From: Simiduia agarivorans SA1 = DSM 21679
GTDB taxonomy: Bacteria; Pseudomonadota; Gammaproteobacteria; Pseudomonadales; Cellvibrionaceae
DNA length: 64,000 nt
Assembly (NCBI RefSeq): GCF_000305785.2
Contig: NC_018868.3
Location: 2,824,001-2,888,000 of the forward strand
Reading direction: 5' to 3'
Shown: piece by piece, positions 29,017 through 38,853 of the stretch
Layout: the number at the start of each line of letters is the position of its first letter
Numbering within the stretch: the first letter of the stretch is position 1
Notes under the pieces: model-generated
Told to the model about the DNA's origin: nothing
What the model saw: the letters and a program-made list of their open reading frames with translations, nothing else
The model's database searches: none
Translations under genes and position numbers: made by a program

Positions 29017-29671
29017 TGAAGAAAGAACGGCAGTGTTCTTGGCTATATCAAAGTATGAGATTTATACAGTATAACGACGGATAGCCCGGATCTTTGGCTC
29101 GTTTTGCATTTTGAACTGGCACGTTTTCACACCGCTACAAAAATTAGAGTCTTTAAAATCAATGGCTTACGATTAAGGGGCCGTGGTTATGGGGGTGGCT
29201 CGAAAAGGTTTTATAGTGCGCGCACGCTTTCTTGGCGTATAGTTCAACCACAATGAAAAACGTTAGATAAATCAATAAATTACAGCCGTTGATTTGCGCG
29301 CCAAATGGCAAAGCGAGCTGGCTCAGTAATTAAATGTTATTGAGCCTTACTTAATTTAGGTCTTGGAAAGAAAGGATTATATTCAATTGCGTGCCATTTT
29401 TCGGCGCGCCGGCATTAGGGAATATGCTGGTATCAGTATCGTAGTTTCGTTCTCAGTGCCAATGCGTAGGCACAATGGCCGGGTCTCGCGGCACTCCGCA
29501 TTGTGGTGTGCCACTAAGTAAATACAAGGTTGGGGCAAGTACGGTATTCTTGCCCCATTGGTGGCCATAAGGTGCTCAACTTACTCTGTAGGTTGGTCAA
29601 ACCAACCGGCCAATAACAAGCAAAACCAACCGACGCGCAAAAAGCGCGCGCGGTTGTTTCGGGCGTTATGT
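29017..29671. other. Non-coding leader of the cassette array
   Basis: About 650 bases with no supported gene. Hairpins: GGCTCAGTAA/TTATTGAGCC (29320-29346, a weak terminator for the cellulase gene); TGGGGCAAG/CTTGCCCCA (29531-29557); and GGTTGGT/ACCAACC (29591-29607). The first attC closes this segment, so at least its right part behaves as an ORF-less or decayed first cassette. No integrase remnant or convincing attI was found. Confidence 0.6.
29613..29669 (+). repeat. attC1
   Basis: ATAACAA at 29613-29619 and GCGTTAT ending 29669; the interior pairs through CCAACCG/CGGTTG and CGCGC/GCGCG. Confidence 0.85.
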
Positions 29672-29989
29672 GTGTTGAGTGCAGATGAATTGGAAACTGA
29701 AGTTTTAACGTTAAAGGTCGAAATAGGCCTGCACGAAAGCTGCATGCAGGGACGTCCTGGATATAGATCCGGTGTTCGGCCTAATCATTGGATGCCCGGA
29801 AAAGACTACACGTTTATGGGGCAAGTTGACTTCATAGGCCGAGATTTGCTTTCTCCGGGTGAGTGTTGCGAGGCGATTGTTAAATGTATTATTCCAGTTC
29901 AGGATTTAGGTTTATTTGAACCGGGCTTCATCTGGCAAATATGTGAAGCGAATAGAATCATGGGCTATGCCAAGGTTTTGTCATGTTAA
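29672..29989 (+). CDS. Cassette 1: stand-alone EF-Tu domain-3-like protein
   Basis: A protein of about 105 residues that looks like the C-terminal beta-barrel of elongation factor Tu on its own: GYRSGVRPNHWMPG (compare the RPQF-type strand), then GQVDFIGRD, LSPGECCEAIVKCIIPV, and FIWQICEANRIMGYAKVLS, which follows the EF-Tu ending EGGRTVGAGVVxKVL. There is no GTPase domain. The start is uncertain: GTG at 29672 or TTG at 29675, both immediately after attC1, without a Shine-Dalgarno site. The role is unknown; it might mimic EF-Tu or be an immunity or decoy protein. Confidence 0.7.
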   Translation: MLSADELETEVLTLKVEIGLHESCMQGRPGYRSGVRPNHWMPGKDYTFMGQVDFIGRDLLSPGECCEAIVKCIIPVQDLGLFEPGFIWQICEANRIMGYAKVLSC

Positions 29990-30089
29990 AAGCACATAAC
30001 AAACGCAACCAAAATGGCCTGGCGGCCGCGACTTAGACTTGCACCACTTTGACGGACAGTAAATTACTGTCAGTCAAAAGAGGTGTGTT

Positions 30090-30455
30090 ATGGGAATAAC
30101 AAAGAAGAAACACTACGACAGCTACACATTGGCCTTTAAGGTCAAAGCGGTCAGAGAAAGTAAAAAACGAGGCGTTAAGGCCATAGATGTGGCGAACGCG
30201 CTTGGTATTCATCCGGTTATGTTGTATAGATGGCGACAGGAGTATAAGGAAGGTCGCCTATCGGAGAACAAGCATATGAAGGTGCCGGAGCCCCCACCTA
30301 AAAAATCTCGCGAAGACAGCGACAAGCTTAAAGTGGCCGAGAGGCGCATTAAGGAGCTTGAGAAACGCTTGGCGGCTAAGGAAGAAGAGGTCGTCATTTT
30401 AAAAAAGGCAAAGCGGTTCTTCTTGGAACAGCGCAAGAAAGATATGCGTTCATAG
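30090..30455 (+). CDS. IS3-family transposase OrfA
   Basis: A 121-residue DNA-binding subunit: helix-turn-helix in YTLAFKVKAVRESKKRGVKAIDVANALGIHPVMLYRWRQEY, then a leucine-zipper-like coiled coil from about residue 75 (ERRIKELEKRLAAKEEEVVILKKA). AGAGG precedes the ATG. The A AAA AAG heptamer at 30401-30407 lies in its last part, where a -1 shift joins the frame of OrfB. Confidence 0.93.
   Translation: MGITKKKHYDSYTLAFKVKAVRESKKRGVKAIDVANALGIHPVMLYRWRQEYKEGRLSENKHMKVPEPPPKKSREDSDKLKVAERRIKELEKRLAAKEEEVVILKKAKRFFLEQRKKDMRS
30401..30407 (+). promoter_or_regulatory. Programmed -1 frameshift site of the IS3 element
   Basis: A AAA AAG in the OrfA frame; a -1 slip continues into OrfB and produces the OrfAB transposase. 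Confidence 0.8.
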
Positions 30456-31279
30456 AGGAGAACCGCGACGTTCATAAAGTCGTGACGATGTGTGAACACC
30501 TTGATGTTTCGACCAGTGGTTACTATGACTGGCGCGAGAGGAAGCCGAGTGAGCGAGCCCAGTACGACGCTATCCTGGTGAGCCAGATATGTCGCATGCA
30601 TGTTGGCCACCAAAAAAACTATGGCGCGATACGGGTGCACCCTTACTTAAGGGCGCGCGATTACGCCTGTAGTCGGCGCCGGATCAATCGCTTGATGAAG
30701 GCACATGGCATACGCTCTATTTATCATGCTCAGCGTCCGCGTCGTTACAAAGGAGCAAATGCTCCAGTATCGGATAACATATTGGCTGCTCGACCAAAAG
30801 CTGCGCAAGTAGGCGAAAGCTGGGCTGGAGACATGACCTATCTGAAGACGGCGGAAGGGGAGCTGTATATGGCTGCGGTCTTGGATCTCTACAATCGCAA
30901 GGTCGTTGGCTGGGGCTTTTCCTCAGCCCATAATAGTGATCTGGTTGAGGGCGCACTACAGATGGCGCTGGCGATGGAGGAGCGGCTTCCAGGTTGCATC
31001 TTCCACAGCGACCAAGGCTCAGAATATCGATCGGATGAGTATCGCAGGCTGCTTCAAGATTCAGATATGGTGAGCAGCATGAGCAGGGCTGGAGTGCCTA
31101 CAGACAATGCGTACGTAGAATCGTTCTTTAAAACGTTGAAAAATGAGCTGGTTCATCATTGGAAATTCAAAAGCAAGATAGAATGCGTTGCCCGAGTTGT
31201 TGATTACGTTGGGTTTTATAATAATAACCGCTTACACTCGGGTTTAGATTATGCAACACCAAATTCATATCAAGGGTGA
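30401..31279 (+). CDS. IS3-family transposase OrfB (expressed as OrfAB by -1 frameshift)
   Basis: The DDE integrase-type catalytic part. The first ATG is at 30482 (265 residues), but the -1 frame is open from the heptamer at 30401 and reads RYAFIEENRDVHKVVTMCEHLDVSTSGYYDW, the conserved OrfB opening, so the fusion is the natural product. The catalytic residues are intact: Asp in GDMTYLKT, Asp in FHSDQGSEYRS, Glu in NAYVESFFKTLKNE. No stop interrupts the frame, which suggests a functional or recently active element. Confidence 0.93.
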   Translation, partial: KKGKAVLLGTAQERYAFIEENRDVHKVVTMCEHLDVSTSGYYDWRERKPSERAQYDAILVSQICRMHVGHQKNYGAIRVHPYLRARDYACSRRRINRLMKAHGIRSIYHAQRPRRYKGANAPVSDNILAARPKAAQVGESWAGDMTYLKTAEGELYMAAVLDLYNRKVVGWGFSSAHNSDLVEGALQMALAMEERLPGCIFHSDQGSEYRSDEYRRLLQDSDMVSSMSRAGVPTDNAYVESFFKTLKNELVHHWKFKSKIECVARVVDYVGFYNNNRLHSGLDYATPNSYQG

Positions 31280-31382
31280 ATCAATAGGTGTCCGTGAAAG
31301 TGGTGCAAGTCCAACTCGCTACGCTCGCCGCTACGCTCGCCTTTGTCGCGGGCGTTATATTTTTTGAGGGAACCGTACGCAG

Positions 31383-31706
31383 ATGGATGTTGCGAGTCTT
31401 ATCTTAGTGCTTTTATGGCCGCTACTTCTGATAGGCTTCTTTAAAAGCAGAAAAAAGATATTCTTGGCTCAAAGCTATTTATCGATAGCGGTGGGCATTG
31501 CAGTTTCATTAATATATGCAATCACCGTATTTCGATCGTATTTAGAATGCATGAATGAAGATCCATATCAACAATGCGCAGCTCTTCCTCAAGCTCTAAT
31601 AGAGTGGTATGGCGAGTGGAGTCTAATTATTAATGTAGTTGTACTTGGTGTATTTGTCGTTGCCCACAACAAAATACAAGTAGCAAAGAATGATAAACAA
31701 ATATAA
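31383..31706 (+). CDS. Cassette 2: small membrane protein
   Basis: A 107-residue protein with three likely membrane segments (about 3-20, 32-50 and 77-95), a short basic loop FKSRKKIF after the first, and two cysteines between segments 2 and 3 (ECMNEDPYQQCAALP) that could form a periplasmic disulfide. GAGGGA lies upstream of the ATG. Its TAA stop is part of the attC3 R'' box. No family is recognised. Confidence 0.75.
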   Translation: MDVASLILVLLWPLLLIGFFKSRKKIFLAQSYLSIAVGIAVSLIYAITVFRSYLECMNEDPYQQCAALPQALIEWYGEWSLIINVVVLGVFVVAHNKIQVAKNDKQI

Positions 31707-31773
31707 CAAGGGTGGGCAGTTTGCGGCTGCCGCCGCGGGACTCGCTAACGCTCGCCCCTGCCACCGGCGTTAA
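31703..31773 (+). repeat. attC3
   Basis: ATAACAA to GCGTTAA, 71 bases; pairs CGGCTGCCGCCG internally and closely resembles attC6 (GGGACTCGCT and GCCACCGGCGTTA shared). Confidence 0.88.
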
Positions 31774-31781
31774 GCATCAAC

Positions 31782-32225
31782 ATGAATACACTGCGCGATG
31801 AACTCAATGAAGTTATACGCTCCGAAAATATAGTGGGGCTTGAATTTCTTCGCATGAATGATTGGCAATGGATAATGGACAAACTGGCCGATAATTTTCT
31901 ATCTCATGGCAAACAAAGCCTCGATAGAATCTGGCTTTGGGACTCCATCAAAGAACCGTATACGAGCTATCAACCAGATGATGGCATTGGAGAACTCAAT
32001 TCACTCCTCAGCCAATCGGGCGCTTACTGGCTTATCGCATCAGATGAAGATGGTAAGTATTGGGTTCTTGAAGGCACGGGAAAGGCAATTGTTAGCGCAT
32101 TGTCCGAAACAAGATATTTTGAGTACTACATTACTAACAAAGAAATATCATGGCTAATTTGTGAAAACCACCATGGTGTAATGGTTCTTAAAGGCTCCAT
32201 TGAGTCCGAGCGAGAAAATGCTTAA
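31782..32225 (+). CDS. Cassette 3: DUF6756-like protein
   Basis: A 147-residue soluble protein. The pattern WQWIMDKLADNF, WLIASDEDGKYWVLEGTGKAI and FEYYITNKEISWLICENHHGVM agrees with my memory of the DUF6756 family, a SMI1/immunity-like group of unknown function; a search should confirm this. The ATG follows attC3 by 8 bases. The TAA stop falls in the attC4 R'' box. Confidence 0.75.
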   Translation: MNTLRDELNEVIRSENIVGLEFLRMNDWQWIMDKLADNFLSHGKQSLDRIWLWDSIKEPYTSYQPDDGIGELNSLLSQSGAYWLIASDEDGKYWVLEGTGKAIVSALSETRYFEYYITNKEISWLICENHHGVMVLKGSIESERENA

Positions 32226-32310
32226 CAAGTCAATTAACTACGCGCCTACGGCGCCGGACAGCTTACACTACGCTTTGCTTCGTTCCAGCTGCCGGTTATT
32301 GAGGCGTTAT
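32222..32310 (+). repeat. attC4
   Basis: TTAACAA at 32222-32228 to GCGTTAT ending 32310, 89 bases, with GGCGCC and CAGCT stems. Confidence 0.83.
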
Positions 32311-32618
32311 GTGCCGAATTGAAAACGATTTTCTTTGAAGTGCCGAATATAGGCAAATACTGTATAAATAAACAGTATTATTATTAGAAGAAAAACTAAG
32401 GAGAAATTTGACGGGGGCTATACTGTTTTTACTTTCCCTTAAGAACATCGACTTGCAGTTGAATGGGTCTTGAGTCATTACAACAGACAAGGCGATGTTC
32501 TTAAGGTTAAGCAATTCCCCGCAAAGCTTCATTTATTTTCGTTTTCACTTCGGTTAACTTTGCCTGCATTAATTTCCACCATTTGAGGAAATGCTGGTGG
32601 CATATGTGAGGCAAGCAC
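32311..32618 (+). ncRNA. Cassette 4: ORF-less cassette with a 70-nt hairpin
   Basis: No gene of normal size on the plus strand. The core is an inverted repeat with perfect 14-bp arms, 32437-32450 and 32493-32506 (CCTTAAGAACATCG and its complement). The 42 bases between can pair further (CTTG/CAAG, TTG/CAA, AATG/CATT), giving one rod of about 25 pairs. A smaller hairpin, AATACTGT/ACAGTATT, lies at 32356-32379. AAGGAG at 32398-32403 precedes a 21-codon TTG-started frame (32408-32473, MTGAILFLLSLKNIDLQLNGS-type peptide, hydrophobic) that runs into the left arm. It could be a structured RNA, a leader peptide with attenuator, or an inserted miniature element. Confidence 0.45.
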
Positions 32619-32716
32619 ATAACAAGACACAACATTTGACCAGTAATAACCTGTCACCTTCGTTGCGTGGCAACAAAGGCGCCAGAACATTCCTGGCAAA
32701 TGTGTTACATCGTTAT
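32619..32716 (+). repeat. attC5
   Basis: ATAACAA at 32619-32625 to CGTTAT at 32711-32716, 98 bases; more divergent inside than its neighbours (TTGCGTGGCAA hairpin at the centre). Confidence 0.78.
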
Positions 32717-32731
32717 GTGTAAGATCAAGCT

Positions 32732-33010
32732 ATGGATAAGCCCGAAGCGATAAGGTTAGTAGAGAAAGAATTAGTAAAACTAAACCCCAGTGTAGATTGC
32801 GTAATTCAGCATGGTGAAACTATTGAAAAGCCTTGGGGATGGGTTTTCTTCTATCAAAGCAAAGCTTTCGTTAGTTCAGGAGACTTCCGAGATATGCTCT
32901 GTGGAAATGCTCCGCTAATTGTAAATCGGTCAAGTGGAGAAGTTGTTTTGACTGGTACGGCGCATGAAATAGAGCATTATATAAAAGAGTATGAAGAGCA
33001 CAGAAAATAA
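32732..33010 (+). CDS. Cassette 5: YrhB/Imm35-type protein
   Basis: A 92-residue protein with the full YrhB-domain pattern: EKPWGWVFFYQSKAF, SGDFRDMLCGNAPLIVNRSSGEV and LTGTAHEIEHYIKEYE. The family includes immunity protein 35, found next to polymorphic toxins, and YrhB of E. coli, reported to act as a chaperone-like factor. No toxin partner is next to it. It follows attC5 by 15 bases. Confidence 0.82.
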   Translation: MDKPEAIRLVEKELVKLNPSVDCVIQHGETIEKPWGWVFFYQSKAFVSSGDFRDMLCGNAPLIVNRSSGEVVLTGTAHEIEHYIKEYEEHRK

Positions 33011-33015
33011 AACAC

Positions 33016-33086
33016 ATAACAAGGGTGGCCAATTCGCGGCTATCGCCGCGGGACTCGCTTTCGCTCGCCCTTGCCACCGGCGTTAT
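33016..33086 (+). repeat. attC6
   Basis: ATAACAA to GCGTTAT, 71 bases; CGCGGCTATCGCCGCG stem; a close relative of attC3. Confidence 0.88.
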
Positions 33087-33107
33087 GCAATGGATAGGTT
33101 AAGATAG

Positions 33108-33452
33108 ATGAATAACAAGTTGTGGCAATGTCCAATCAAAGTTGAGCGTGGTACTTACGAGGCTATGCCCGATACTTGGGCTGGGGCCGCAGTTAATTAC
33201 TATGTTGGAGCTGCTACATACGAAGAAGCATTAACGAAGGCTGTAAAGGTAGTGCAGTCCTTAGGGATGATCTTTGTTGATCTTCTAGACGGAAAGGTAA
33301 TGCAGCTAGATCCTGAAAACTGGTGGGAAGGCTATGTGATGGCAAATTACTCAGATTATTCAGATTATTTCCCGGCTCAGGATGAAGTGCTAAGGATTGT
33401 AAGAGAGGGATTAGTTTTTCATGGGCCATTTGCTGGTTGGGGGCGAGAATAG
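33108..33452 (+). CDS. Cassette 6: hypothetical protein
   Basis: A 114-residue soluble protein with many aromatic and acidic residues (WWEGYVMANYSDYSDYFPAQDEVLRIV). The opening LWQCPIKVERGTYEAMPDTWAGAAVNYYVGAATYEEALTKAVKVVQSLGM may be one alpha/beta unit. No family is recognised. The stop lies six bases before the attC7 R'' box. Confidence 0.7.
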   Translation: MNNKLWQCPIKVERGTYEAMPDTWAGAAVNYYVGAATYEEALTKAVKVVQSLGMIFVDLLDGKVMQLDPENWWEGYVMANYSDYSDYFPAQDEVLRIVREGLVFHGPFAGWGRE

Positions 33453-33456
33453 ATGC

Positions 33457-33515
33457 ATAACAAAGTGCTCAAGAGCCGACGCGCGAAAAGCGCGCGCGTC
33501 TTAGCACGGCGTTAT
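33457..33515 (+). repeat. attC7
   Basis: ATAACAA to GCGTTAT, 59 bases, with GACGCGCG/CGCGCGTC stem. Differs from attC10 at one base only. Confidence 0.9.
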
Positions 33516-33526
33516 ACGGCTGTCTG

Positions 33527-33865
33527 ATGGAAAGCATTGAAAAACTAAAGAACAGCTTAATCTCGTTATTCCCATCTTTTGCAGAAGAGCTGGTGGAGGA
33601 CGAGCCGGGAGAATTCGAGTATCGCGAGGAGCTAAGTCTTCATCATATTTGGCGATGCTTTAGCTATACGGCGTCAAAGGAATTGGTTCAGGCTGAGGTG
33701 AAAGTAATTAAATCTCTCGCTGAATTAGTAAACAAAAGTGTGGCTGCTGGCGGTGTTGAAGAAAATGCAGTATCCACCTGTTTTCTAGAGCACGCATCCC
33801 AAATTGGTGTTAAAAAGGCGCTTAAGCCTCATCTGTCGCAGCTAGCTAGGCAGGAGCTAAGATGA
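33527..33865 (+). CDS. Cassette 7: helical hypothetical protein
   Basis: A 112-residue, probably all-helical protein: LHHIWRCFSYTASKEL, KSLAELVNKSVAAGG, ENAVSTCFLEHASQIGVKKALKPHLS. The arrangement recalls the DUF7674 family, but the match is from memory and weak. Likely role unknown; small helical proteins of this sort are often immunity-like. Confidence 0.7.
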   Translation: MESIEKLKNSLISLFPSFAEELVEDEPGEFEYREELSLHHIWRCFSYTASKELVQAEVKVIKSLAELVNKSVAAGGVEENAVSTCFLEHASQIGVKKALKPHLSQLARQELR

Positions 33866-33874
33866 GAAAATCGT

Positions 33875-33951
33875 ATAACAAGGGCAGGCAAAGTGGGCCG
33901 CAAAAAACGCGGCCCGGACTCGCTATCGCTCGCCTTTGCTGCCGGCGTTAT
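33875..33951 (+). repeat. attC8
   Basis: ATAACAA to GCGTTAT, 77 bases, with GGGCCGC/GCGGCCC stem. Confidence 0.87.
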
Positions 33952-33975
33952 GTGTAAGCAATTGGGTATCAGCAG

Positions 33976-34200
33976 ATGTCATTTGATGAATTCTTAATGA
34001 AGAACGGATGGACGAAAGAAGATACCTCATTTTCTTATCATAAAGATGGATTCCGACTAGTGTTTGATACAAGTTCTTGGCTAGAGGTAGAAACAATGTC
34101 GGGTCAGAGAATATTTGACGTTCCTGTACCAGAAGAGCGTTTATACAAATGGACTGTAAATTTAATTGGGCACCTTTGTGCAACACATACTACTAGATAA
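33976..34200 (+). CDS. Cassette 8: small hypothetical protein
   Basis: A 74-residue protein, MSFDEFLMKNGWTKEDTSFSY then FRLVFDTSSWLEVETM; alternating polar and hydrophobic strands suggest a small beta structure followed by one helix. It has no signal peptide. Not recognised; the short length makes it less certain, but its position between attC8 and attC9 supports it. Confidence 0.62.
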   Translation: MSFDEFLMKNGWTKEDTSFSYHKDGFRLVFDTSSWLEVETMSGQRIFDVPVPEERLYKWTVNLIGHLCATHTTR

Positions 34201-34226
34201 TGAAAAGCAAATCTCAAAGATCACAC

Positions 34227-34339
34227 ATAACAATCAGCTCAACACGAAGCCCAACCTCCGCTTCACTACGCGGCTGGCCTTCGGCCATCTTAGCCGCTAC
34301 GCTCCGCTGACGGTTGTGCTCGTGTTAGCTGGGCGTTAT
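34227..34339 (+). repeat. attC9
   Basis: ATAACAA to GCGTTAT, 113 bases, a long attC with GGCTGGCCTTCGGCCATC and AGCACAACC-type pairing (AGCTCAACACGA with TCGTGTTAGCT). Confidence 0.85.
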
Positions 34340-34354
34340 GAGTAAAGGAATCAC

Positions 34355-34678
34355 GTGATAAAGATCACCTTTTTGATGTTTACTCTATTAAATGTTGCTG
34401 GCTGTGTAGGCACGATGTCTGGAGCATATGAGACATTTGCAGAGGATCTCGGAAGTTTAATTGGCAAAAGTTTCGAATCATCATATGTATACAATATTGG
34501 CTACCTCGCACAATTAAAACCGGATGAAATAAAGCCATTGACCAATGGCAACGAAATAAGGGTTTATGCAATTAATCCTCCAAGAATCCAAAAGTGTAAG
34601 GTACATATCGAGGTGGATATTAATAGCATTGTTGTCGGTGCAACTTCGGAGGGCCCAGAGTGTTGGCGTGCATATTAA
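34355..34678 (+). CDS. Cassette 9: small lipoprotein
   Basis: A 107-residue predicted lipoprotein: leader with lipobox NVAGC (Cys 17), then a stretch with VYNIGYLAQLKPDEIKPLTNGNEIRVYAINPPRIQKCKVHIEVD. Two further cysteines (KC and EC) may form a disulfide. The start is GTG at 34355; there is no other usable start before the leader. Family unknown; likely attached to the outer membrane. Confidence 0.72.
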   Translation: MIKITFLMFTLLNVAGCVGTMSGAYETFAEDLGSLIGKSFESSYVYNIGYLAQLKPDEIKPLTNGNEIRVYAINPPRIQKCKVHIEVDINSIVVGATSEGPECWRAY

Positions 34679-34690
34679 GCATCAATACTC

Positions 34691-34749
34691 ATAACAAAGT
34701 GCTGAAGAGCCGACGCGCGAAAAGCGCGCGCGTCTTAGCACGGCGTTAT
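34691..34749 (+). repeat. attC10
   Basis: 59 bases, identical to attC7 except for one base (GCTGAAGAGC instead of GCTCAAGAGC). Confidence 0.9.
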
Positions 34750-34770
34750 GAGTCCAATAAGCATTAGAGT

Positions 34771-35049
34771 ATGAAACTAGGAAAAATATATAAGGGAGTA
34801 TCCGTAGATGAGTTTCACGTAAAGCGCGAAGGTGGCTCGTTTACGGTAAGGTTTGAATTTAGCAGCTCAAATGAGAGTGTTAGAGCCACGCTTTTTGGGG
34901 TTCGTGATCCAGAAAACCTATGCGAGATTCTAAATGCAGATCGGCTATGGGTAGAAAAAGAAGAAAATAGCCAGGCTGGATTTGGAGTCTACACGTTAGG
35001 TGTATCCCATGAATATTTTACTGAAATAGTCTTCGATGCATTGTCGTAG
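34771..35049 (+). CDS. Cassette 10: hypothetical protein
   Basis: A 92-residue soluble protein: MKLGKIYKGVSVDEFHVKREGGSFTVRFEFSSS-type opening, ATLFGVRDPENLCEIL, then a C-terminal FGVYTLGVSHEYFTEIVFDAL. Strand-rich first half, helix at the end. No family is recognised. Confidence 0.68.
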   Translation: MKLGKIYKGVSVDEFHVKREGGSFTVRFEFSSSNESVRATLFGVRDPENLCEILNADRLWVEKEENSQAGFGVYTLGVSHEYFTEIVFDALS

Positions 35050-35112
35050 TCAAACTCATAACAAGCGACTGTGGTCCCAAGTCAAGCCTACCGCAACGTT
35101 TTCTTTGCTGGG

Positions 35113-36069
<957 letters not shown>

Positions 36070-36095
36070 GACTCACCCTTGCTACATTCGAGCTC

Positions 36096-36229
36096 GAGGC
36101 TCATTCGACTGTTCGAGTTAAAAGTAGGATCAGTGAGGCGCCCCTGCTTGTTAACGGGCTCGATGGTATCGGCGCCTTGCAGCCACCGGGCTACCTCACT
36201 GAATGTCTGTTGCTGCAGACATGAGCCTC
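36096..36229 (-). ncRNA. Candidate bridge RNA in the 5' region of the IS110 element
   Basis: Nested complementary arms: outer GAGGCTCAT (36096-36104) with ATGAGCCTC (36221-36229); inner TCAGTGAGG (36130-36138) with CCTCACTGA (36194-36202); and a hairpin ATGTCTG (36203-36209) with CAGACAT (36216-36222), which competes for two bases with the outer stem. The inner stem encloses a 55-base internal loop, as in known IS110 bridge RNAs. In that loop GCTTGTTA (36146-36153) is the reverse complement of TAACAAGC at the element-attC junction (35059-35066). Inference only. Confidence 0.45.
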
Positions 36230-36365
36230 ACCTTATCGCTTTAATAACAGGAAATGAAATCGTGTTATTTCAACCATACAAACGCAGCCACACCGGCCTA
36301 TCGGCCTCGACTCGCTACGCTCGCGTGTGCTGCGGGCGTTAAGCGGCTTCTACCAAGGAGATGAT

Positions 36366-36677
36366 GTGCCAGTCGGAGAAATTGCGGGGGAGATTATTGG
36401 TGGAACCTTTAGATTTATTGTAAGAGTTTTAGCCGAAATTGTATTTGAAATATGTGTTAAAGGTCCTGGCTATTTGGCCTGTAGGCCGTTTTCGCGTAAT
36501 GTAAATCCTGACAGCGCGCTAGTTGTTTTGGTTGGTTTTATTGGTTGGTCTTTTTTATTGTGTGCGTTCTATTTCGGTTATGAATTTGTTTCTATTCAAA
36601 TTGAAATTGATCGATGCTTAGACTCGGGCGGCAGTTATAATTATGAAATTGGTCAGTGCATTCAGTCTGGCGCTTAA
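36366..36677 (+). CDS. Cassette 11: small membrane protein
   Basis: A 103-residue protein starting at GTG 36366, chosen because AAGGAG (36355-36360) lies five bases before it. An amphipathic N-terminus (GEIAGEIIGGTFRFIVRVLAEIVFEICVKGPGYL) is followed by one strong membrane segment, DSALVVLVGFIGWSFLLCAFYFGYEF, and a short tail with two cysteines. No family is recognised by name. Confidence 0.72.
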   Translation: MPVGEIAGEIIGGTFRFIVRVLAEIVFEICVKGPGYLACRPFSRNVNPDSALVVLVGFIGWSFLLCAFYFGYEFVSIQIEIDRCLDSGGSYNYEIGQCIQSGA

Positions 36678-36759
36678 CAAGTGGCTTTTGGTTGCCACAC
36701 AAAAAACGTGCGGCGGGACGGCTACGCTGTCGCTCCGCCGCCCCAAAGCCAGGCGTTAT
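36674..36759 (+). repeat. attC13 (counting the reconstructed site as attC11 and keeping 12 unused)
   Basis: TTAACAA at 36674-36680 to GCGTTAT ending 36759, 86 bases; GGCGG/CCGCC stem. The TAA stop of cassette 11 is inside the R'' box. Confidence 0.85.
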
Positions 36760-36776
36760 ATTCCGGAGAAAAAGCA

Positions 36777-37361
36777 TTGAGCGAGTTCAAGTTTGAGCCA
36801 AAGCCAGAATCAGACTACCTTCCGTTAACTGCGCTGTGGAGTTCTGAGCTGGGTTTTTTAAAAAATATTAAATTTCTCATTCTAGAGGTTTTTTTTGGGG
36901 TTTCTATTACAGAGTTGCTGGCAGATACGAGCTCAGTCCAGCTCACAAAGGCAGGGCAAATATCTTCTTTAGAAATGTCGAAGTCTGACAATGGCTATAT
37001 TGAGAAAATCAGTAAGTTCATTCCGCCATCTTTGATGACAAAGGTCATGGAGCGGCAGTTGTGTGAAATGTTGTATGAAAAATACTTCAAAACTTATCAG
37101 TTTCTCACGCACCCTGAAGAGAACCTGCTTCCTTCGGGTTCTGAGAGGCCAGAACAAAACCCAGAGTTCTCGGATCCTACGTTATATCGCTTAAATAAGT
37201 TAAAAACTACGCAGCTTTCAGCGTATAGGGGTAAGTTAAATTTCATATGGACCACTACAGAAACATTGGTAGCTACAGTCACCTGGATCTCCACTAATTC
37301 ACTTGAGATAACATTGCTTCTCACGGGGCTTGTAGAGCTCGCGAAGAGGTTCAGAATATAA
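36777..37361 (+). CDS. Cassette 12: hypothetical protein with a C-terminal hydrophobic segment
   Basis: A 194-residue protein from TTG 36777; GGAG at 36765-36768 lies eight bases before it, whereas the open frame further upstream runs through attC13. The N-terminal half is mixed, a basic helical region (IPPSLMTKVMERQLCEMLYEKYFKTYQFL) occurs in the middle, and the last 35 residues (TLVATVTWISTNSLEITLLLTGLVELAKRF) could be membrane-embedded. Not recognised. The stop overlaps the attC14 R'' box. Confidence 0.7.
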   Translation: MSEFKFEPKPESDYLPLTALWSSELGFLKNIKFLILEVFFGVSITELLADTSSVQLTKAGQISSLEMSKSDNGYIEKISKFIPPSLMTKVMERQLCEMLYEKYFKTYQFLTHPEENLLPSGSERPEQNPEFSDPTLYRLNKLKTTQLSAYRGKLNFIWTTTETLVATVTWISTNSLEITLLLTGLVELAKRFRI

Positions 37362-37470
37362 CAATGCGCAGCAGAAGGACGTCTTACTTTATGCACTTTA
37401 TGTGCAGTCGCTTCGCTTCATTTTTGCACATAAAGTGCACAAAGCAAGCCGCCCCTGTGCGCGGCGTTAT
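37358..37470 (+). repeat. attC14
   Basis: ATAACAA to GCGTTAT, 113 bases; a long site with GCACTTTATGTGC and TGCACATAAAGTGCA hairpins and GCGCAGCAG near the 5' side. Confidence 0.85.
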
Positions 37471-37491
37471 GAGTATTAAGTGAGGAGAATC

Positions 37492-38202
37492 ATGAGAATA
37501 ATATACGTAGGAATTGCCTGTTTACTTCTTCAGGCGTGCGCCACTGTCGGATCCGTAGATCGGCCAGGGAGTTACTATCAGGAAGCCTCCGGCAGCTCCA
37601 CTGATGGATTAGTCGAAGGCGCCATCTTTGGGGATGATGATAAGAAGATAAACGAGCTGCTAAATTATCAAGTTAAACTGCCCGAAAAGAATAGAATAGC
37701 AATTCTCAAGCTCAGTGCTGACAATTACTGGCGATTTTACTCAAACGACTTTACTCAATTGAATGATTTATTGGTTGAATCTCTAATTACTAAGCTCAGA
37801 GCATCAAGCCGGGTATATGACGCGTCATTCTTGCCCGCAATGCTGGTTTCTGAAAAGAGAACCGTCCCGGTCTTACGAGAGGCTGCCGCACGCTTCCAGG
37901 CTGATTTATTGCTGGCTTATAGAAGCTCCTGTCAGTCTTACCAAAAATATAGATTCATCGATCCTAATGAAAGTAAGTCATATTGCTCGGTCGAGGCGGT
38001 GTTGCTGGATATTCGTTCTGGAATAATAGTGAAATCTGTCGTGAGCACAGAGGATTTCACCACAAGGAAATCTGCTAACGATACAAATTTCAATGAAACA
38101 ATCAAGAAGGTTGAGCTAGAGGCAGTGGCAAAGGCTCTCGGTAATGTAGCCAATGAAATAGTAGTTTTTATGAACAATGTACCAAGACTCAAAAACTCAT
38201 AA
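37492..38202 (+). CDS. Cassette 13: 236-residue lipoprotein
   Basis: The largest cassette protein. The leader MRIIYVGIACLLLQAC has lipobox LLQAC (Cys 16). The mature part holds an alpha/beta pattern, RIAILKLSADNYWRFYSNDFTQLNDLLVESLITKLRASSRVYDASFLPAMLV then LREAAARFQADLLLAYRSSCQSYQKYR, reminiscent of TolB-N/CsgG-type lipoproteins that collect in the outer membrane. This likeness is tentative. GAGGAG precedes ATG 37492, which is favoured over a start at 37480. Confidence 0.78.
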   Translation: MRIIYVGIACLLLQACATVGSVDRPGSYYQEASGSSTDGLVEGAIFGDDDKKINELLNYQVKLPEKNRIAILKLSADNYWRFYSNDFTQLNDLLVESLITKLRASSRVYDASFLPAMLVSEKRTVPVLREAAARFQADLLLAYRSSCQSYQKYRFIDPNESKSYCSVEAVLLDIRSGIIVKSVVSTEDFTTRKSANDTNFNETIKKVELEAVAKALGNVANEIVVFMNNVPRLKNS

Positions 38203-38269
38203 CAATTCAATCCAGCAAGTGCCCTTCGGGCAGGGGCGCGCTAAAGCGCGCCCCTGTTTGAGGCGTTAA
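38199..38269 (+). repeat. attC15
   Basis: ATAACAA to GCGTTAA, 71 bases, with the strong stem GGGGCGCGCT/AGCGCGCCCC. Confidence 0.88.
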
Positions 38270-38274
38270 CACAT

Positions 38275-38799
38275 ATGAAGCATAAAAAATTTATACCTCT
38301 TCTCTTTGTGGTTTGTACTTTCGCTACAGCGCAAGAGGTATACGACATTCCTGTAGGCTCTTCACTTGAGTACTCGCACTCTGCTTATGGGGGGATGTGG
38401 GATTATTTTTCAGGTGACCACCTTATTTCTTCTAAATATACAATACAGGCGTCGTTTAACTCCTCTGACCAAAGTGGATTGATTGTTATTCTAACCCCTG
38501 ATTCAGAAGAGATTAGCAAGCTACCAATTCCAGTTAAGATCAAGCCAATTCCTGCGAAGAAAATTTCGATCAATAATTCTGGCGAAATAGCCAAAAAACT
38601 AGCAACACAATCAGAGCTAGATAAGGTAATGGTATTACAAGAGGATCCCTATGTAATTGTAGGTGAGGGGCAGTTCTTGATTACCAGTTTTTCAACGGGC
38701 ATTGAGTGTGACTATCGAGAATACAACGCAACGATTATTGCTGTTATTCAGACTCTTGATGTCGCGAAAGGTGTCGGGAAAAAAGTTAATATTTGTTAA
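38275..38799 (+). CDS. Cassette 14: secreted hypothetical protein
   Basis: A 174-residue protein with a signal peptide (MKHKKFIPLLFVVCTFATAQ). The mature part is strand-rich: VYDIPVGSSLEYSHSAYGGMWDYFSGDHLISSKYTIQASF, then VGEGQFLITSFSTGIECDYREYNATIIAVI with two cysteines. No family is recognised. Probably periplasmic. Its TAA stop forms part of the last attC. Confidence 0.73.
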   Translation: MKHKKFIPLLFVVCTFATAQEVYDIPVGSSLEYSHSAYGGMWDYFSGDHLISSKYTIQASFNSSDQSGLIVILTPDSEEISKLPIPVKIKPIPAKKISINNSGEIAKKLATQSELDKVMVLQEDPYVIVGEGQFLITSFSTGIECDYREYNATIIAVIQTLDVAKGVGKKVNIC

Positions 38800-38853
38800 C
38801 AAACGCAACAAAACCGGCCTATCTGCCTCGACTCGCTTTGCTTGCGTTTTATA
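38796..38853 (+). repeat. attC16, decayed right end
   Basis: TTAACAAACGCAAC at the left and GACTCGCTTTGCTTGCG inside are typical, but the right side reads GCGTTTTATAAC in place of GGGCGTTAT. This marks the degenerate end of the array, 40 bases before the rep gene. Confidence 0.75.

Follow-up and report, generated by a model that had tools for sequence, protein, structure and literature searches.

A probable satellite integron array in Simiduia agarivorans: fifteen cassettes behind an attI site without an integrase gene, the first cassette gene-less

Clusters of integron cassettes that lack an integrase gene are usually read either as relics of complete integrons or as insertions of cassettes at genomic sites. 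A small RNA of Xanthomonas, sRNA-Xcc1, is reportedly encoded by an integron, and Rfam contains this family. An attI-headed cluster of attC sites lacking an integrase (CALIN) is described in the Shewanella prophage M16-3 (PMC9892861), gene-less (ORF-less) cassettes acting as promoters are described in Vibrio (PMC11014356) and Treponema (PMC6557892), and sRNA-Xcc1 is cited (PMC8876359; PMC12444791). Integrase-less arrays, one attI-headed prophage case, gene-less cassettes and one cassette-borne small RNA are already known. What appears to be new, as far as the literature search shows, are attI satellites which recur through a genus and a conserved non-coding cassette family which extends across bacterial families; the search found nothing on either.

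In this work a 64-kb stretch (the window) of the single-contig genome of S. agarivorans (4,300,227 bases) was analyzed. With 15 attC sites in one orientation and no adjacent intI it qualifies as a CALIN, for which two attC sites without a neighbouring intI suffice, but it differs in having at its head a copy of the attI that belongs to a chromosomal integron of the same genome. The CALIN of M16-3 lies in a prophage, whereas the Simiduia satellites are chromosomal, number several per genome and occur in all four genomes of the genus. The first cassette shares the absence of a protein gene with those reported from Vibrio and Treponema; it differs in being a member of a single sequence family, which has conserved blocks and helices and extends over several bacterial families. 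With sRNA-Xcc1 it has in common a non-coding RNA on an integron cassette, here a predicted one, and it differs in that neither the window stretch nor a copy from another family (genome G254) matched any Rfam family at E <= 1. We consider it probable that the locus is an attI-headed satellite array served in trans, with its gene-less first cassette acting as an RNA or as a leader/promoter element.

Extent and composition of the array

A covariance model of attC (R3) was trained on 34 attC sites of the same genome, all taken from outside the window in order to avoid circularity; its stem contains 65 both-side changes compared to 18.4 in shuffles. The 13 matches of R3 in the window, with E values between 2.4e-18 and 0.21, all lie on the + strand between 29614 and 38849, and the remaining ~54 kb is free of matches. 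Two further sites which R3 left unscored were recovered by the exact attC pattern (36675-36758) or recognised by eye and by cassette ends (32620-32715), bringing the total to 15 attC sites and 15 cassettes. The own 5' and 3' ends are complementary over 7-10 bases in 15/15 of these cassettes, against at least 7 complementary bases in 22/210 of the control pairings between non-own ends. Across five arrays of the genome the own ends are complementary over a mean of 8.4 bases, with 7 or more in 41/43 cassettes. Such complementarity is as expected for units which would be intact and excisable and, together with an attC fold whose stem covaries, identifies these units as integron gene cassettes. It should be mentioned that the mean of 8.4 bases is slightly above the 7-base core. 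The initial annotation had proposed an integron-derived array of sixteen attC sites in a single orientation and fourteen cassettes; the array and its orientation were borne out by the externally trained model and the end test, while both counts had to be corrected to 15.

The left edge of the array, earlier placed at 29613, is formed by the attI site at 29183, as both this site and the first cassette (29336-29668) had been overlooked; the gene-less nature and the family of cassette 1, a second gene-less cassette and two insertion sequences inside attC sites had likewise escaped notice. The array is flanked by a GH9 glycosidase gene on one side and a rep/UvrD helicase gene on the other, and its G+C content without the IS elements is 43.8% compared to 57.5-57.7% in the flanks, in agreement with the AT-richness first noted. 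All features are listed in Table 1.

Table 1. Features of the array and the evidence on which each was assigned (positions within the window).
Feature	Position	Strand	Evidence
Diverged remnant of the intI promoter side, no intI	29040..29182	+	Alignment of three copies
Orphan (satellite) attI, crossover G at 29336	29183..29339	+	157-158 bp similarity to two other attI copies
Cassette 1, gene-less, likely structured (NCC); body 29336-29613, attC 29614-29668	29336..29668	+	BLAST, models, R3
Conserved core of cassette 1 with predicted helices P1 and P2	29382..29463	+	R1/R2, 84-87 bits
Cassette 2 body, ORF within 29669-29989	29665..30000	+	Own ends; attC interrupted by IS3-family element
IS3-family element, 1276 bp, orfA + orfB (rve)	30036..31311	+	Terminal inverted repeat 22/23 bases
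Cassette 3, 107 aa, no family over cut-off	31354..31772	+	Pfam, R3, own ends
Cassette 4, DUF6756, 147 aa	31769..32309	+	Pfam, R3, own ends
Cassette 5, gene-less, CCTTAAGAACATCG ... CGATGTTCTTAAGG	32306..32715	+	Own ends; attC unscored by R3
Cassette 6, Imm35-family, 92 aa	32712..33085	+	Pfam, R3, own ends
Cassette 7, 114 aa, no family	33082..33514	+	Pfam, R3, own ends
Cassette 8, DUF7674, 112 aa	33511..33950	+	Pfam, R3, own ends
Cassette 9, 74 aa, no family	33947..34338	+	Pfam, R3, own ends
Cassette 10, 107 aa, no family	34335..34748	+	Pfam, R3, own ends
Cassette 11 body, 92 aa, no family	34745..35062	+	Pfam, own ends; attC interrupted by IS110-type element
IS110-type (DEDD transposase) element, frame broken	35065..36276	-	PF01548 below cut-off; ends approximate, by eye
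Cassette 12, 116 aa, no family	36338..36758	+	Exact attC pattern, Pfam, own ends
Cassette 13, 194-226 aa, no family over cut-off	36755..37469	+	R3, own ends
Cassette 14, 240 aa, no family	37466..38268	+	R3, own ends
Cassette 15, 174 aa, DUF6705 below cut-off	38265..38849	+	Weak terminal attC (R3 14.4 bits), own ends

For the families checked the cassette genes are, as had been stated, mostly unrecognised. The earlier assignments to Imm35 (32732-33010) and DUF6756 (31782-32225) both score above the curated Pfam cut-offs, the match to DUF7674 (33527-33865) lies only just above its own, and that of 38275-38799 to DUF6705 falls below. An EF-Tu-like protein had also been suggested for 29669-29989; this homology is not supported, with no matches in Pfam, NCBIfam or PDB sequences. 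The gene-less cassette 5 (32306-32623) contains a 14-base inverted repeat, the two arms of which are given in Table 1, and also the LexA-like CTGTATAAATAAACAG.

Two attC sites are split by insertion sequences. Of the site interrupted by the IS3-family element the 3' part is still matched by R3 at 31268-31357 (20 bits), and of that interrupted by the IS110-type element, which matches a transposase on a P. aeruginosa plasmid at 77.9%, the 3' part was found at 36277-36341. Insertion sequences of the IS1111-attC group target attC sites. That the terminal attC is weak and that two attC sites have been split by insertion sequences points to a partly static array.

The attI site, its satellites and the integrases

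The window attI is 96% identical to C1:3225149-3225305, a copy without intI, and 94% identical to C1:3033360-3033517, which adjoins intI1 and is the only one of these three copies with an integrase gene beside it. By position and by sequence (it resembles the attI beside intI and ends in GTT) it is an attI site at which recombination is predicted. Within attI, 138-143 of 149 columns are identical among the three copies, compared to 76-98 of 147-148 columns in the DNA just upstream. The upstream remnant contains TTTATACAGTAT, half of a LexA-like box.

No intI was seen in the window, as previously reported, and a genome-wide TIGR02249 search placed none there; the nearest match lies about 179 kb away, so that the locus is not a complete integron with intI adjacent to attI. 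This match, IntI1 (C1:3032256-3033194), and a second integrase about 545 kb from the array (C1:3398679-3399626) are both intact, without internal stops, with scores of 389.9 and 433.8 bits compared to a cut-off of 265, and are 46% identical to each other. In both, the catalytic Arg/His/Arg/His/Tyr region is visible. In the whole genome the exact attC pattern gave 48 matches on the + and 7 on the - strand, compared to five and five for the reversed pattern, and R3 applied to the retrieved stretches of the genome found 81 attC sites in seven clusters, the 34 training sites included.

Satellites of attI without intI were identified in all four Simiduia genomes and in one genome of another family: nine cases are clear, a further one follows a relic intI, and stretch L039 of G003 matches only in part. 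In G003 the attI next to the C3 intI has three counterparts on C1 (at 63, 342 and 348 kb), each about 92% identical to it over ~160 bp; in all three the similarity starts at nearly the same base and the preceding DNA is unrelated. G002 has two copies, with 83% and 74% identity to the attI of that genome. The copy in G001 (C4:515 kb) resembles attI sites from other species but none of those in G001 itself. Beyond the genus, G254 carries an intI-less attI with 85% identity over 48 bp to the attI that adjoins a broken intI. The contrast between attI and upstream DNA in our genome, and the nearly identical starting base of the G003 satellites, indicate that the functional attI site has been preserved and the DNA upstream of it has not. 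A second attI type (L071 11800-11860, and relatives) has the near-perfect palindrome TGCCTCGGAGGCGTAATATATTACGCCTCCGAGGCA just before the crossover.

The preferred reading is that 15 cassettes of one orientation follow an attI that lacks an intI, and that an integrase encoded elsewhere on the chromosome would insert cassettes at this attI; IntI1 would be the most likely server, as its own attI is 94% identical to that of the window, and the same enzyme would excise array cassettes in trans. Recombination in trans, like the transcription and RNA function discussed below, is inferred from sequence. The similarity of the attI copies could alternatively have arisen through recent duplication or gene conversion without any use of the site. 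It is also conceivable, although in our judgement unlikely, that a complete integron lost its intI by a deletion reaching up to the region of the LexA box and that the array is now decaying. The half LexA-like box and the diverged promoter side which persist upstream of attI fit such a history, as do the two interrupted attC sites and a locus of G001 (C6:1052234-1052577) where an attI is preceded by a relic intI, frame-broken and in two pieces, as expected of an intermediate in such a loss. Against it, attI is kept at 94-96% and the promoter side is not, all 15 cassettes have matched ends, two intact integrases are present in the same cell, and the rep locus of three congeners (L104-L106) is without attC. 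Either the array is confined to this species or the other three have lost it, although left-flank synteny at their loci is partial, and weak in G002. Of the two options offered initially, mobilisation by an integrase located elsewhere or a relic, the first appears favoured by the two intact integrases and by the copy of the intI1-associated attI at the head of the array. Insertion at a non-integron genomic site (attG type) without attI, a route by which CALINs can form according to PMC12444791, is extremely improbable here given the 157-bp attI copy before cassette 1.

A family of gene-less cassettes

Gene-less cassettes are defined in PMC11014356 by having no reading frame above 70 codons. 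With a longest stop-to-stop distance of 65 codons the body of cassette 1 is gene-less, while some other copies of its family reach 89. Among 26 copies the distances range from 42 to 89 codons compared to 64 +/- 15 in shuffled sequences, and none has a frame beyond chance. A BLAST search of 58 related genomes with the window cassette found relatives in the four Simiduia genomes only. A model was then built from 26 copies over 82 positions (R1) and rebuilt from 54 members (R2). Searched with R1 at E <= 0.01, the four Simiduia genomes yielded 9, 9, 11 and 15 matches, of which 34/44 exceed 70 bits; nine family matches belong to the source genome, where L024:14706 is weak (E 0.16). In the main subfamily 26/28 copies span the interval from the previous crossover to the attC, the others being one at a locus end and one truncated.

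Sampling of 244 genomes at the order level gave matches in G254, G132 and G159, and a coding-looking one in G121; with R2 seven of 390 order-level genomes were positive (our own, G132, G159, G254, G676, G730 and G740), and of 369 class-level genomes searched under stricter filters only our own. The family beyond the genus comprises five genomes of four genera in three other families. The model placed attC sites around the copies of G254, G676 and G730, and the attC behind the G132 copy was recognised by eye only. Alignment of 18 full-length members showed conserved blocks along the whole body and across families. Several candidates were set aside: G740 (L093), a 45-bit core match outside any recognised integron with no attC near; G121 (L055), matched by R1 only, and L040:6557, both of which look coding; the truncated copy L038:8187; and G159 (L067), with no attC recognised behind the copy. 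No copy was found in viral contigs with the exact pattern; in plasmids the window cassette matched two records through its attC only, and the G676 copy matched none. According to a hand-made list a gene-less cassette of this family occupies the first position at 7/19 attI loci (P = 0.10 if ~22% of the cassettes at the sampled loci is taken as the expected share, a rough value as these loci are biased to members; P = 0.005 against 12%, or 10/81 attC sites of the genome), and on these figures we do not claim a preference for that position. Another repeated gene-less cassette type, starting with GTTATGCGGAAA, occurs in L071 (G003) and L072 (G002), and in G132 (L076, C6) the first cassette behind intI seems gene-less by eye and has no R2 match.

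RNA structure or DNA signal in cassette 1

The structure-fitted alignment comprises 53 distinct rows, among them the doubtful one of G740, and 1005 cells in helices P1 and P2. Of these cells 90.9% are paired, compared to 28-60% in slid controls; both-side cells number 46, with 18.6 in shuffles, and the score is above all 500 shuffles, while the count of pairs changed on both sides stays within the shuffled range (153/500). The unfitted genus alignment A3 (26 rows, 23 distinct) showed no excess covariation: of the five measures, four were equalled or exceeded by 490/500 shuffles and the remaining one by 480. An excess was found in model-fitted alignments only. For this reason an RNA structure of the gene-less cassette is regarded as likely and not as proven. 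G-U pairs make up 236 of the 1005 paired cells on the + strand and would read A-C on the other, which favours the array-sense strand as the putative transcript; folding z-scores are modest and alike on both strands (means -1.95 and -1.72). A closing stem formed by both ends of the RNA was ruled out as a candidate: coding cassettes show the same own-end complementarity, which must therefore be attributed to the att core.

In the proposed mechanism the transcript of cassette 1, in array sense, would fold into conserved hairpins and would most likely serve as an RNA or as a leader/promoter element for the neighbouring cassettes. As gene-less cassettes with promoters are known (PMC11014356), cassette 1 may be an RNA leader, a small RNA or a promoter which drives or tunes the cassettes behind it. 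That it is a mere promoter cassette, conserved for its DNA signals and not as RNA, is a serious possibility which we nevertheless rather doubt. The same paper reports promoter activity of gene-less Vibrio cassettes, and the lack of covariation within the genus is in line with such a role. Promoter-like patterns between 29020 and 29720, however, are at chance (one found, on the - strand, with 1.1 expected), although promoters of gene-less cassettes are described there as not predictable in silico; in addition, P1 and P2 persist across four families and the G-U pairs point to one strand. Descent from decayed gene cassettes, for which the decayed frames that PMC11014356 mentions for some Vibrio gene-less cassettes offer a precedent, is very unlikely, since the 26 copies contain no frame beyond shuffled sequence and yet have blocks conserved across families.

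Returning to the reading of an attI-headed satellite with an RNA or leader/promoter element in first position, a wider scheme can be put forward tentatively, in which one or two integrases would serve several attI sites across a Simiduia chromosome and a cassette-borne structured non-coding RNA, common to at least four families, would have multiplied in these arrays, where it would regulate the expression or the movement of cassettes. If many integrase-less clusters carry an attI of their own, they would be docking sites for integrases acting in trans, and the study of cassette dynamics would have to extend from the intI locus to the whole genome. With 8-15 strong copies in every Simiduia genome, the conserved gene-less cassette would represent a rare type of non-protein integron cargo, and one whose structure can be tested.
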